Source: Alphaproteobacteria bacterium (lineage in GTDB: Bacteria; Pseudomonadota; Alphaproteobacteria; UBA7985; JAUIBT01). From it: a stretch of 35,930 nt of DNA. Below are positions 18,176 through 27,971 of the stretch, piece after piece. The DNA lies in the NCBI GenBank assembly GCA_030428565.1, contig JAUIDR010000035.1, forward strand, positions 1 to 35,930. The letters run 5' to 3'. Position 1 is the stretch's first letter; each line of letters begins with the position of its first letter. The notes below the pieces were generated by a model that had not been told where the DNA came from, did not search any database, and worked only from the letters and a program-made list of their open reading frames with translations. The position numbers were made by a program, and so were the translations under genes.

Positions 18176-18190
18176 GTTCTTGCTTTCTTC
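18176..18190 (+). promoter_or_regulatory. putative LexA/SOS box upstream of recA
   Basis: GTTC (18176-18179), seven bases, then CTTC (18187-18190). Alphaproteobacterial LexA recognises direct repeats of the GTTC-N7-GTTC type, with variants known in some genera; this site has one mismatch in the second half. It lies 64 bp upstream of the chosen recA start, as expected for SOS control. Confidence 0.55.
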
Positions 18191-18253
18191 GGAAAAAGAA
18201 CATACCGCTTGAGCTAGGCGCTGGTCTGGCGCCATTGCGTGTGGAATATAGGC

Positions 18254-19327
18254 ATGACCAATTACGACCTCGCCTTGATGGAAAGAAACGCTGTGAGTAA
18301 AGAAAAAGCGCTGGAAGCGGCCATATCGCAGATCGAACGCGCCTTCGGTAAAGGCGCGATTATGCGCATGGGTGAAAAAGATCAAAAGATCGAAGTCGAC
18401 GTGGTGAAGTCCGGCAGCCTGGGCCTGGACATCGCGCTTGGCATCGGCGGCTATCCCAAAGGGCGCATTGTCGAAATCTATGGACCCGAGTCCTCGGGTA
18501 AGACCACGCTGGCCCTGCATGCGATCGCAGAAGCGCAAGCTGCGGGCGGCACCTGCGCCTTTGTCGACGCCGAACACGCGCTGGACCCCATCTATGCCCG
18601 CAAGCTGGGCGTTAAAGTCGAGGACTTGCTGATCGCCCAGCCAGACACCGGCGAACAGTCCTTAGAAATCGCCGATACCTTGGTGCGCTCGGGCAGCGTT
18701 GATGTCCTGGTGGTTGACTCGGTTGCTGCTTTGGTGCCCAAGGCCGAATTGGAAGGCGACATGGGCGACTCGCTGCCGGGCCTGCAAGCGCGCCTGATGA
18801 GCCAGGCCCTGCGCAAAATCACGGGCTCGATCAATCGCGCCAACACCCTGGTCATTTTTATCAACCAGCTTCGAATGAAAATCGGAGTCATGTTCGGCAG
18901 CCCAGAGACCACGACCGGCGGTAACGCCCTCAAGTTTTATGCCTCTGTGCGCCTTGATATTCGCCGCATTGGCTCGGTCAAGGACCGCGATACCGTGACA
19001 GGCAACCAGACCCGCATCAAGGTCGTTAAAAATAAGATGGCACCGCCCTTCCGTCAGGTCGAACTGGATATCATGTACGGTGAAGGGGTCTCAAAGACCG
19101 GTGAGCTGATCGACCTGGGCATTCAGGCCGGGGTGGTTGAAAAATCGGGCTCTTGGTTCTCAGCTGGCGACATTCGCATCGGCCAGGGCCGCGAGAATGC
19201 CAAGAACTTCCTGCGTGAAAATCCCGAGGTGGCCCAAAAGATCGAAACCGCCATTCGCAAGAACGCGGGCCTGGTCGCCGACGCCATGTTGGAAGGCCCC
19301 AATGACAGCGATGAAAGTGCGAAATAG
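18254..19327 (+). CDS. recA: recombinase A
   Basis: RecA forms filaments on single-stranded DNA, promotes strand exchange and triggers LexA self-cleavage. The 357-residue product carries Walker [10 protein letters not shown] (from residue 77), the Walker B strand [12 protein letters not shown], loop L1 [18 protein letters not shown], loop L2 [20 protein letters not shown] and the usual acidic C-terminus. Four possible starts exist: GTG 18239, ATG 18254, ATG 18278 and GTG 18293. ATG 18254 gives the N-terminal length usual for alphaproteobacterial RecA, although its ribosome binding site is poor; GTG 18293 has a better GGAAAG. A putative SOS box lies upstream. Confidence 0.97.
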
Positions 19328-19415
19328 GCTGCATTTTGCAACGCAGCTTGATTCGATTCGCGGCGAAATGTGGTAGCAATGCGTCGATTTTAGACACAAA
19401 GGGGCGAAAAATATA

Positions 19416-19496
19416 CTTTTGATAGCTATTCTTAGCCAAAAGTGTCGAAATTGTCCCAAATGAGATGACCTTTTGGATGGGATGGGCTATCAAAAG
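19416..19496. repeat. 11-bp perfect inverted repeat behind recA
   Basis: CTTTTGATAGC (19416-19426) is the exact reverse complement of GCTATCAAAAG (19486-19496), 59 bp apart. A shorter pair GACAC (19393-19397)/GTGTC (19442-19446) overlaps this interval. Together with the hairpins at 19513-19656 this makes the post-recA spacer unusually rich in pairing potential. Confidence 0.65.
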
Positions 19497-19500
19497 ATCA

Positions 19501-19665
19501 GTTGACGCCTTTACCTGTTTTTAGGTGCGGCGGACGAGACAGCCGAGCGCTGTGGCGACCGCCGGAGCCGATCTTAGATCGGTCTGATCGTATGATCAGA
19601 AAGTCGTTTGACGTTGAGCGAGATATTACTATAGCCCGGTCCTGCTTGGATCGGGCTTTTTTTTG
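19501..19665 (+). ncRNA. candidate structured small RNA between recA and alaS
   Basis: Five consecutive elements can pair. ACCT/AGGT (19513-19516/19523-19526) comes first. CGGCGG/CCGCCG (19528-19533/19559-19564) encloses ACAGC/GCTGT (19539-19543/19549-19553). CCGATC-TTA-GATCGG (19568-19582) and CTGATC-GTAT-GATCAG (19584-19599) follow. The last is a very good intrinsic terminator ending in eight T. No protein frame ends near the terminator: recA stops 300 bp earlier. So either recA mRNA has a long structured 3' UTR or there is a separate RNA gene. The 5' end is a guess because no convincing promoter was found. I do not recognise a known RNA family. Confidence 0.4.
19634..19664 (+). terminator. 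strong rho-independent terminator 300 bp after recA
   Basis: Stem GCCCGGTCC (19634-19642) with GGATCGGGC (19648-19656), one wobble pair and a 5-nt loop TGCTT, followed directly by TTTTTTTT (19657-19664). It ends either a long recA transcript or a separate small RNA. Confidence 0.88.
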
Positions 19666-19744
19666 TCTAACCTTCCCCGCCCCACACGATTATTGCGACA
19701 GCATCTCTGGCTCTTTCGCTGAGCCCGCCTCTAGAACCGGCCCT

Positions 19745-19870
19745 GGCTCGGGGAATTTGGCTCGGGGAATTTGGCTCGGGGTCTCTGGTTCGTCGCCCCT
19801 GGCTCGGGGGCCCTGGCTTGGGGGCCCTGGGTTGGTTGCTCTGGCTCAGGGGCTCTGGGTTGGTCACTTA
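19745..19870. repeat. 14-bp minisatellite, nine degenerate tandem units
   Basis: Nine units of exactly 14 bp run in phase. The first two are identical (GGCTCGGGGAATTT), the third is GGCTCGGGGTCTCT, and later ones drift (GGCTCGGGGGCCCT, GGCTTGGGGGCCCT, GGGTTGGTTGCTCT, GGCTCAGGGGCTCT). As 14 is not a multiple of three it cannot encode a repeated peptide. It sits in the gene-free region between recA and alaS. Confidence 0.88.
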
Positions 19871-20457
19871 ATTGGCCCCGGGATCGGGCACTGGCTCCGC
19901 TGTCATGGCCCGCGCCGAACCCGTCGTGCCGGCGTCGAGGCCAGCCATGTCGACCACCGCCGCCCTTATAAGCCGTAGGTCGGGAGCTGCGAGCGCAGAC
20001 CGCGCCTGCTGTTGCACTTGGCAGGTCGCTCCTGGCTGGATTGCGCTCGGCTATTCCTGCTTAGCTCGTTGTGCCTGGCTTCATGCCCGCGCGCTAGCGC
20101 AAGCCGCGAACGAGTAGCAACACGAGTGAGCATCGACTTGCGTTATAAATCAGTCAGCTAGAGCGTCTGGCCTTTTGCAACACCAGTGCCCGACGCTCTA
20201 GACCGGATAGGGCTGCCCCTTGCAAGCAGGCGTCAAGCGACAGACTGGCGTGTCGACGCAAGAGCTTGCCAAACGCCCGCCTTTCGCAGCGCGTGCGGCG
20301 ACCTGGCTCTACGCGCAGCCCTTGATTGCTGGTTTACTCTCACGGCCAAGGCCTTATAGTCCTGCCCGTTCCAGGCATGTGCTTGGCGCGGCCAAAAGGG
20401 CTGCGCTGCATGCCCCCACTTGCCGCCCGGCACAACTTTGGACTTACGCAGCGATTT
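19871..20457. other. gene-free region upstream of alaS
   Basis: This stretch holds no supportable gene. One strong inverted repeat is present: CTAGAGCGTC (20158-20167) with GACGCTCTAG (20192-20201), 10 bp perfect, no T run. TATAAA at 20144-20149 could be a -10 element but has no good -35. The alaS frame is open back to 20326, but the extra residues are not AlaS-like. Confidence 0.45.
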
Positions 20458-23112
20458 ATGGCGACCACCAATCAGATTCGTTCCACCTTCTTGTCTTCGT
20501 TTGAGAAAACCGGCCACCGCATCGTCGACTCCTCGCCGCTGGTGCCGGACAATGACCCGACGCTGATGTTCACCAACGCGGGCATGGTCCAATTCAAGAA
20601 CATTTTCACCGGCCAAGAGACTCGCGATTACAGCCGCGCCGTGACCAGCCAAAAATGCGTGCGCGCTGGTGGCAAGCACAACGACTTGGAAAACGTCGGT
20701 CACACCGCCCGCCACCACACCTTCTTTGAGATGCTGGGCAACTTTTCGTTCGGTGACTATTTCAAAGAAAACGCCATCGAATACGCCTGGAACCTTATCA
20801 CCAAGGACTATGGCCTGGATGCATCAAAGCTGCTGGTCACTGTCTACCACACCGACGACGAGGCCGCCGCATTGTGGCGCAAGATAGCCGGCCTGACCGA
20901 CGAGCGCATCATTCGTATCCCGACCTCGGATAACTTTTGGTCCATGGGGGACACCGGTCCTTGCGGCCCCTGTTCTGAGATTTTCTATGACCACGGCCCC
21001 AGCATTTGGGGCGGCCCTCCGGGTTCGCCTGAAGAAGACGGCGACCGCTTTATCGAAATCTGGAACCTGGTCTTCATGCAGTTTGAAAAGCATGCCGACG
21101 GCAGCCAGACCAATTTGCCTAAGCCTTCCATCGATACTGGCATGGGCCTAGAGCGCATCGCCGCCGTGTTGCAAGGCAAGCACGATAACTACGATATCGA
21201 CCTGATGCGCGCTTTGATCGAAGCTAGCGCGCAGGCCTCCAACAACGATCCCGACGGCCCGCACAACGTCTCGCACCGTGTCATCGCCGACCATCTGCGT
21301 TCGTCTGCTTTCTTGATTGCCGACGGCGTTTTGCCCTCGAACGAAGGCCGCGGTTACGTGCTGCGCCGCATCATGCGCCGCGGCATGCGCCACGCGCACA
21401 TGATGGGCAACACCGAGCCTATGATGTATAAACTGGTGCCGGCGCTGGTGGCGCAAATGAGCGACCACTTCGGCGAGCTGAAGGCCGCCGAGAGCCACAT
21501 TACCGAGACTTTGAAGCTGGAAGAGACCCGCTTTAAGCAGACCCTAGATCGCGGCCTGAAATTGCTCAATGACGCAACGGGCAAGCTGGGCGATGGCCAG
21601 GCCCTGCCCGGCGAAACCGCCTTCCGCTTATACGATACTTACGGTTTCCCGCTGGACCTGACCCAGGACATTCTGCGCGGCGAAAATCGCCCGGTAGACA
21701 CCGACGGCTTCAACGCTGCTATGGAAGCGCAAAAGGCGGCCGCGCGCGCCGCTTGGAAGGGCTCAGGCGATACCGCCACGGAAAAGCTGTGGTTTGATCT
21801 GGCGGACCGCCTGCCCGCGACCGAGTTCTTGGGCTACGCCAAGACCGAAGCTTCGGGTGAAATCTTGTCCTTGGTCAAGGATGGCCAGGAGGTCGAAGAG
21901 CTAAAAGCGGGCGAGAGCGGCACAGCATTGCTCAATCAGACCCCCTTCTATGCTGAGTCGGGTGGCCAACAAGGCGATACCGGCAGCATGCAGACCGAGG
22001 GCGGCACCAGGGCGCAAGTCAGCGACACGCAAAAGAAGCTGGGCACGCACTGGCTGCACGAACTGACGCTGGAAGCCGGCAGCCTCAAGGTCGGCGACAG
22101 CGTGGATATGAGCGTTGACACCGAGCGTCGCGGCGCGCTGGCCCAGCACCACTCGGCCACCCACCTGCTGCACGAAGCCCTGCGGCGTTCGCTGGGCGAG
22201 CATGTCGCGCAGCGCGGCTCTTTGGTCGCCGACGATCGTCTGCGCTTTGACTTCTCGCACACCAAGCCTGTCGATGCCGCCAAGTTGGCCGCCATCGAGC
22301 GCAGCGTTAACGAGCACGTGCAGGAAAACTCAAACGTCACCACCCGCATTATGACACCCGACGAGGCCCGCGCGTTGGGCGCTCAGGCGCTGTTCGGCGA
22401 AAAGTACGGCGATGAGGTGCGGGTCGTGGCCATGGGGGCGCCCGACGCGGGCAGCGACAAGCCCTATTCGCTAGAACTTTGTGGCGGCACGCACGTCAAA
22501 CAGACCGGCGATATCGGTCTGGTCAAACTGGTCTCTGAAGAGGGCCTGGCCGCTGGCATCCGGCGTATCGAAGCAGTCGCCGGCGATGCTGCGCTGGCCT
22601 ACTTCAACCAGCGCGAAGGCCTGTTGACCGACGCCTCGGCGCTGCTGAAGGTGGCACCGGCAGAGCTGCCAGGGCGCATCGAAGCCCTGCTGGCCGAGCG
22701 CAAGAAACTGGAACAATCCTTGAGCGATCTGCGCAAACAGCTCGCTACCGGCGGCGCCAGCCAAGAGGTCAAGGATATCGCGGGCGTCAAGCTCAGCGGC
22801 AAAGTGCTGGACGGCGTGCCGGCAAAAGACTTGAAGGGCATGGCCGACGCGCTGAAGGGCCAATTGGGTTCTGGCATCGTGGCGCTCATTGCGACCAACG
22901 ACGGCAAGGGTTCGGTCGTGGTGGGAGTCAGCCAAGACCTGACCGAGCGCCTAAGCGCTGTTGATCTGGTCAAAGCCGCCTCTGCGGCGATGGGCGGCAA
23001 AGGCGGCGGTGGCCGCCCCGACATGGCCCAAGCTGGCGGCCCCGAAGCCGACAAGGCGGCGGCCGCGCTGGAGGCAATCGAAGCAGCGGTCGCGAGCGCG
23101 CTGGGAGCCTAG
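20458..23112 (+). CDS. alaS: alanyl-tRNA synthetase
   Basis: AlaS charges tRNA-Ala and removes misattached Ser/Gly. The 884-residue length is typical. In order: the class II catalytic domain ([58 protein letters not shown]), the tRNA-recognition helices, the editing domain with the zinc/active-site motif H565SATH569 ... C675GGTH679, and the C-terminal glycine-rich C-Ala domain ending [18 protein letters not shown] chose the ATG at 20458 because [15 protein letters not shown] is the family N-terminus. The ribosome binding site is weak. The next gene starts 6 bp after its stop, so they are probably cotranscribed. Confidence 0.97.
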
Positions 23113-26606: not shown

Positions 26607-26620
26607 CTTTGTTTTTTAGA

Positions 26621-26714
26621 GTTTACGGGTTTTCAGGGTTTACGGGTTTTCAGGGTTTACGGGTTTTCAGGGCTTGCGGGTTTTCAGGGCTTGCGGGTTT
26701 TCAGGGCTTGTGGG
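26621..26714. repeat. 17-bp minisatellite, five and a half tandem units
   Basis: Three identical units of GTTTACGGGTTTTCAGG (26621-26671) are followed by two of GCTTGCGGGTTTTCAGG (26672-26705) and a partial sixth. The array fills the convergent gap between the flavoprotein gene and the DMT exporter and reaches into the last codons of the exporter: its TGA stop (26701-26703) is the TCA of a repeat unit. There are no spacers, so it is not a CRISPR. Confidence 0.92.
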
Positions 26715-27700: not shown

Positions 27701-27736
27701 GGCCAATAACACGGCCAATAACACGGCCAACAAAAC
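27701..27736. repeat. 12-bp tandem repeat, three units
   Basis: GGCCAATAACAC occurs twice in a row (27701-27724) and is followed by the variant GGCCAACAAAAC (27725-27736). It lies in the divergent promoter region between the DMT exporter and methylmalonyl-CoA mutase. The 12-bp spacing would place sites just over one helical turn apart. Confidence 0.75.
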
Positions 27737-27971
27737 GGCTAGTGCGATGGCGAGCCAAACTCGCACAGCCGACAAGACGGGTCTATCCGAAGTCTGCAAC
27801 CAAAACGCCGCCGCTAGGCTTTTACTGTCTTCACATTCCCTGCGCCCCGCGCTCGCAGATTGCTAGGTTTTGCCCGCGAGCCTTGCTAAGCTCCGCAATG
27901 AAGATTGAACCAGTACGTCGCGTCTACCAAGCCCAAAGATGCGCGCATTTAAAAAATCAGGGAGCCCGCCA

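Follow-up and report, generated by a model that had tools for sequence, protein, structure and literature searches.

What is the dense chain of hairpins that lies between recA and alaS in this alphaproteobacterial genome: a long 3' untranslated region (UTR) of the recA message, possibly processed into a small RNA, or an RNA gene in its own right? The initial annotation offered both readings and suggested a link to the SOS response. The window, i.e., the whole 35,930-nt stretch of DNA analysed here, is contig C21 of a 3.5-Mb assembly (G000), and it was compared within its genus (three genomes; G000, G001 and G002) and its order (11 genomes). We find that the element is probably a functional RNA tail of the recA message, from which a small regulatory RNA may be derived.

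Setting and predicted structure of the element

The genes around the element are ordered metA-like, dksA, recA, a gap of roughly 1.1 kb, and alaS. A TTG-started alaS frame opens at 20326, but its TIGR00344 match starts only at residue 50, so that translation probably begins at the ATG near 20458. The element is on the same strand as recA, with nothing coding in between, and is closed by an intrinsic terminator. The same arrangement occurs in the congener G002, with the element immediately 3' of recA. In five of six genomes of family f2, recA and alaS are separated by only 11-43 bp and such a UTR is absent. The features of the locus are as follows.

18176-18190, + strand: LexA-like box GTTCTTGCTTTCTTC (GTTC-N7-CTTC, one mismatch to GTTC-N7-GTTC), 5' of recA
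18239-19327, + strand: recA (TIGR02012, 556 bits; last base of the stop codon at 19327), presumed 5' part of the same transcript as the element
19328-19380, + strand: post-stop segment, 83% identical to G002, fold unremarkable
19389-19417, + strand: promoter-like site TTTAGA-17-TATACT (9/12 match), with the -10 but not the -35 conserved in G002
19402-19510, + strand: long hairpin P1-P3, 92% identical to G002
19402-19406 with 19506-19510, + strand: P1, outer helix of the long hairpin
19416-19426 with 19486-19496, + strand: P2, an 11-bp inverted repeat (CTTTTGATAGC/GCTATCAAAAG) spanning 81 bp
19430-19446 with 19467-19482, + strand: P3, part of the long hairpin
19513-19526, + strand: P4, ACCT/AGGT (ACCT/GGGT in G002)
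19528-19564, + strand: P5, CGGCGG (19528-19533)/CCGCCG (19559-19564) around ACAGC (19539-19543)/GCTGT (19549-19553)
19568-19582, + strand: P6, CCGATC-TTA-GATCGG, with two G-U-compatible changes in G002
19584-19599, + strand: P7, CTGATC-GTAT-GATCAG, stem identical and loop different in G002
19601-19630, + strand: invariant 30-mer AAGTCGTTTGACGTTGAGCGAGATATTACT, 3' half predicted unpaired, a candidate seed or Hfq contact
19633-19664, + strand: terminator P8, stem 19633-19657 and T run 19657-19664 (eight T)

The hairpin chain, the 11-bp repeat over 81 bp, the CGGCGG/ACAGC stem, the GATC hairpins and the eight-T terminator all lie where the initial annotation had placed them. The predicted folding energy of 19328-19665 is -135 kcal/mol, as compared to -98.4 +/- 5.5 in shuffles (z -6.7), and the orthologous stretch of G002 reaches a z of -5.3. 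The signal is located in 19402-19510 (z -6.1) and 19509-19660 (z -4.9); the fold is not unusual in the flanks, either at 19328-19400 (z -0.5) or in the 338 nt 3' of the terminator (z +1.1). In a coarse scan of the stretches 3' of recA at 90 loci (15 shuffles each), the stretch studied here had the lowest z, but several unrelated loci also reached values of -6 to -8; a low z is therefore not special by itself. One of 300 dinucleotide shuffles contained an inverted repeat that was perfect over 11 bp or more and fitted inside 100 nt. GATCAG occurs twice and CTGATC once (19497-19502, 19584-19589 and 19594-19599), all conserved, and it is possible that CTGATC pairs with either GATCAG copy to give an alternative fold.

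Several other features of the window were recorded. Just 3' of the recA stop are two neighbouring GANTC sites (19350-19359; GATTCGATTC), where G002 has GAGTCGATTC, and CGATTCG is also found just 3' of the recA stop in genomes of the sister family f3. In alphaproteobacteria, GANTC is the site methylated by CcrM. Immediately 3' of the terminator is an imperfect 14-bp tandem array (GGCTCTGGCTCGGG x8.6; 19739-19858). Since comparable 14- and 15-bp arrays (GGCCGCCGAGCCAG and AGCCAGGGCCGACCG) occur at G000:C28 and G001:C185, a dispersed family of short tandem arrays in the genus is possible. Elsewhere in the window are a 17-bp array (TTTTCAGGGTTTACGGG x5.5, 94% matches; 26613-26706) flanked by glcD-like and exporter-like genes, and a 12-bp array (GGCCAATAACAC x3.2; 27701-27739). 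In G002 the element is followed not by alaS but by a convergent, apparently broken frame (L003 1-1500), which we take, by eye, to be aminopeptidase-P-like.

Conservation, distribution and excluded identities

Among 61 related genomes, that of the congener G002 alone carries the element; recA was not found in the third congener (86% complete). Between the window and G002, recA is identical at 92, 97 and 61% of first, second and third codon positions, respectively. Identity in the UTR is 83% over 19328-19380, falls to 43% over 19381-19401 and rises to 92% over 19402-19508. Just 5' of the terminator, 19601-19630 is identical at 30 of 30 nt, and 19605-19632, which includes two differing bases 3' of the 30-mer, is 93% identical. 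Beyond the terminator, identity drops to about 35-50%. Set against the recA third positions and the drop behind the terminator, the identity of 19402-19508 and of the 30-mer indicates selection on the element at the nucleotide level, with the terminator as its boundary.

When the two species were folded separately, P1-P3, P4, P5, P6, P7 and P8 were predicted in both, and the remaining parts of the folds differed. RNAalifold, run on the full two-sequence MAFFT alignment, gave local hairpins mixed with doubtful long-range pairs, in part because MAFFT misaligns the terminator. The stems P1, P2 and P4-P8 of the window and G002 were therefore compared in a hand alignment, in which 45 pairs are unchanged, five are kept with a one-sided change, two are kept with a two-sided change, three are broken and two are gained. 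Every broken or gained pair is in P5, where the internal loops are displaced. One two-sided change, G-C to A-U, is also in P5 (ACAAC/GTTGT in G002); the other, C-G to U-A, is in P8, which retains 10 of 10 pairs. P1, P2 and P7 are invariant between the two species. A random single substitution would retain a G-C or A-U pair with a chance of about 25-33%. The pair changes are thus suggestive of the predicted fold, with covariation that is thin because it comes from two sequences.

Covariance models were built of the 5' hairpin (R1) and the 3' chain (R2). Among 385 alphaproteobacterial genomes, convincing matches to R1 and R2 were found only in G000 and G002, and the same held for R2 among the 11 genomes of the order. 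A match of 20.7 bits in the wider search (L103) has several broken pairs and was set aside as chance. A lack of conservation in sister species would, by the initial annotation, have refuted its reading. The element is kept in G002, with the suggestive covariation described above, and was not found beyond the genus. No Rfam 15 family reached its gathering threshold on the element, the best sub-threshold matches (~18 bits) lying over the terminator. The 6S RNA model (RF00013) does not match here, the genuine 6S RNA of the genome being at C2:6085-6248, and a tRNA or tmRNA identity was likewise rejected. No additional copies were found in the same genome or in phages, plasmids and viral contigs. 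Short frames exist within the element, but coding is unlikely since they differ between the species by 1-2 nt indels and mostly amino-acid-changing substitutions, and the 30-mer is identical even at their third positions.

Proposed transcription and processing, and competing explanations

Our preferred explanation, to which we assign a probability of about 0.5, is that the element is a selected, terminator-ended, genus-specific 3' UTR of recA that is processed into an Hfq-type small RNA (sRNA) co-regulated with recA. What is observed is a strong fold that evolution has maintained, together with a terminator; the element is syntenic with recA in two species, lacks coding capacity and occurs as a single copy, and the genome encodes Hfq. 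The steps from there are proposed. Transcription would begin at the recA promoter and end at P8. RNase E or RNase III would excise the 3' part, from either the P1-P3 hairpin or the hairpin chain to P8, and this part would persist as a small RNA. Hfq would bind the U-tail of the terminator, the invariant 30-mer would pair with target mRNAs, and the level of the RNA would track that of recA, including during the SOS response.

In the ensemble predicted for the window, most of the 3' half of the 30-mer is single-stranded, and the final ~10 bases of the 30-mer are unpaired in both species; some predictions place part of the 30-mer in a short GUC/GAC hairpin. An invariant, largely unpaired segment beside a U-tailed terminator would, by analogy, make this a candidate 3' UTR-derived Hfq sRNA. 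The hfq gene of G000 was identified by PF17209 (109 bits), and Hfq was found in all four genomes searched; ProQ, searched alongside, was not found. Complements of two 15-nt seeds gave no target site common to G000 and G002. A G000 site just 5' of a Shine-Dalgarno-like stretch (L124) has two mismatches, corresponds to none of the G002 sites and was rejected. Autoregulation was rejected as well, because two conserved UTR segments paired with the recA 5' region no better than shuffles did.

GTTC-N7-GTTC is the consensus of alphaproteobacterial LexA boxes. G002 has a LexA-like box upstream of recA (GTTCTTGCTTTTTTC), as does the window, each with one mismatch to this consensus, and none was found within the UTR. 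Given this placement, the suggested SOS link survives only as co-transcription with recA, and the LexA box itself is putative.

A serious rival, though a somewhat unlikely one in our estimate, is that the UTR acts only in cis, its hairpins shielding the recA mRNA from 3' exonucleases and its terminator insulating recA from alaS, with no trans-acting RNA. The terminator and strong stems exist, the UTR-free spacing in f2 contrasts with the gap of ~1.1 kb here, and divergence of sequence between families would be expected if structure alone mattered. Stability and termination cannot, however, account for a segment identical at 30 of 30 positions, nor for stems and loops of 19402-19508 that are equally near-identical. 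An ordinary terminator with chance hairpins, whose only selected function is termination, would fit the low z of other recA-downstream stretches, but conservation far above that of third codon positions in recA extends over >130 nt apart from the terminator itself, and the divergence of 19381-19401 and of the DNA past the terminator disfavours a locally low mutation rate. We consider this reading very improbable.

Transcription from a promoter of the element's own, near 19389-19417 with a start near 19424, would make it an independent sRNA gene. The 9/12 site, the conservation of TATACT in G002 and the sharp climb in identity from 19402 speak for such a gene, which we nevertheless judge quite unlikely. 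The -35 falls within the block of lowest identity (43%); three promoter-like sites are present where shuffles predict 1.0 +/- 0.9, so that one more is unremarkable; and a transcript starting at 19424 would lack P1 and the greater part of the 5' arm of P2. Of the two readings offered by the initial annotation, then, the recA 3' UTR gains from synteny, the terminator and the invariant segment, and the independent gene is weakened by the poorly conserved -35 and by a start that would cut the 5' arm of a conserved hairpin. Transcription of recA reading through the UTR to P8 is the simplest reading. A mobile or phage-derived, MITE-like hairpin element, or a site acting at the level of DNA, might have come to lie behind recA by chance, and the perfect inverted repeat and the enlarged recA-alaS gap relative to relatives would suit it. 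There is, however, one copy per genome and no match in phages, plasmids or viral contigs, the location is identical in both species, and the hairpins and one-sided T run indicate an RNA made from the + strand; such an origin has hardly any likelihood.

Known systems and significance

The closest known systems are 3' UTR-derived sRNAs of other parent genes. In Rhodobacter sphaeroides, SorX, CcsR1-4, UdsB and UdsC are cut from 3' UTRs by RNase E and extend to the terminator (PMC8625941). They resemble our element in being alphaproteobacterial and terminator-ended, with an RNase E-generated start that is one proposed option here, but they have other parent genes and no Rfam relation to it, and recA is absent from that paper (PMC8625941). 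DinR of Klebsiella pneumoniae is an SOS-linked sRNA from the 3' end of dinI, for which experiments established processing, dependence on Hfq and ftsZ as a target (PMC10907235). Both DinR and our element are at the 3' end of a DNA-damage mRNA, share the mRNA end, are lineage-specific and occur in a genome with Hfq; the parent of DinR is dinI rather than recA, our element is known from sequence alone, and we claim no sequence relationship (PMC10907235). The parent of DinR is LexA-controlled, and that of our element has a LexA-like box. The DinR authors describe one Hfq-dependent, LexA-controlled trans-acting sRNA, with other LexA-regulated ones lacking in their data (PMC10907235). OppZ and CarZ of Vibrio cholerae share the concept of a 3' UTR-derived sRNA and pair with their own transcripts, unlike our element, whose pairing with the recA 5' region does not exceed shuffles (PMC7398697). 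A non-exhaustive search of titles and abstracts in the open-access literature found no sRNA from a recA 3' UTR. The element is best described as a structured, genus-restricted 3' UTR that belongs to an SOS-type mRNA, and as a candidate sRNA of the known 3' UTR-derived type.

A UTR of similar plan occurs in the sister family f3 (G004 and G006).

L088 2569-2742 and L089 1311-1485, minus strand: f3 recA 3' UTR, ~175 nt (338 in the window)

Its hairpins (z -7.3 and -4.9) are followed by a terminator, and it contains an almost invariant hairpin and a conserved block, TGACGGTTGTCGGCTCAAATTTGAAG, just before that terminator. It is thus, like that of the window, structured and terminator-capped with a conserved block in the same place, but it differs in length and shows no similarity in sequence or by covariance model; the model built from the f3 UTR (R3) did not match the window. 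We raise as a speculative and rather doubtful generalization that, in this order, the recA mRNA repeatedly ends in structured tails that evolve fast, are particular to each family and are set free as regulatory RNAs coupled to the SOS response. If so, the central gene of the SOS response would also produce the response's own trans-acting RNA, differing in sequence by family while its place and plan stay the same.

If the UTR acts in cis only, it is an ordinary 3' UTR that stabilises and insulates its message. If it is processed, a small RNA would be encoded inside the recA message and hence tied to DNA damage, and this would point to independent origins of SOS-linked 3' UTR RNAs in other classes, with rapid turnover.
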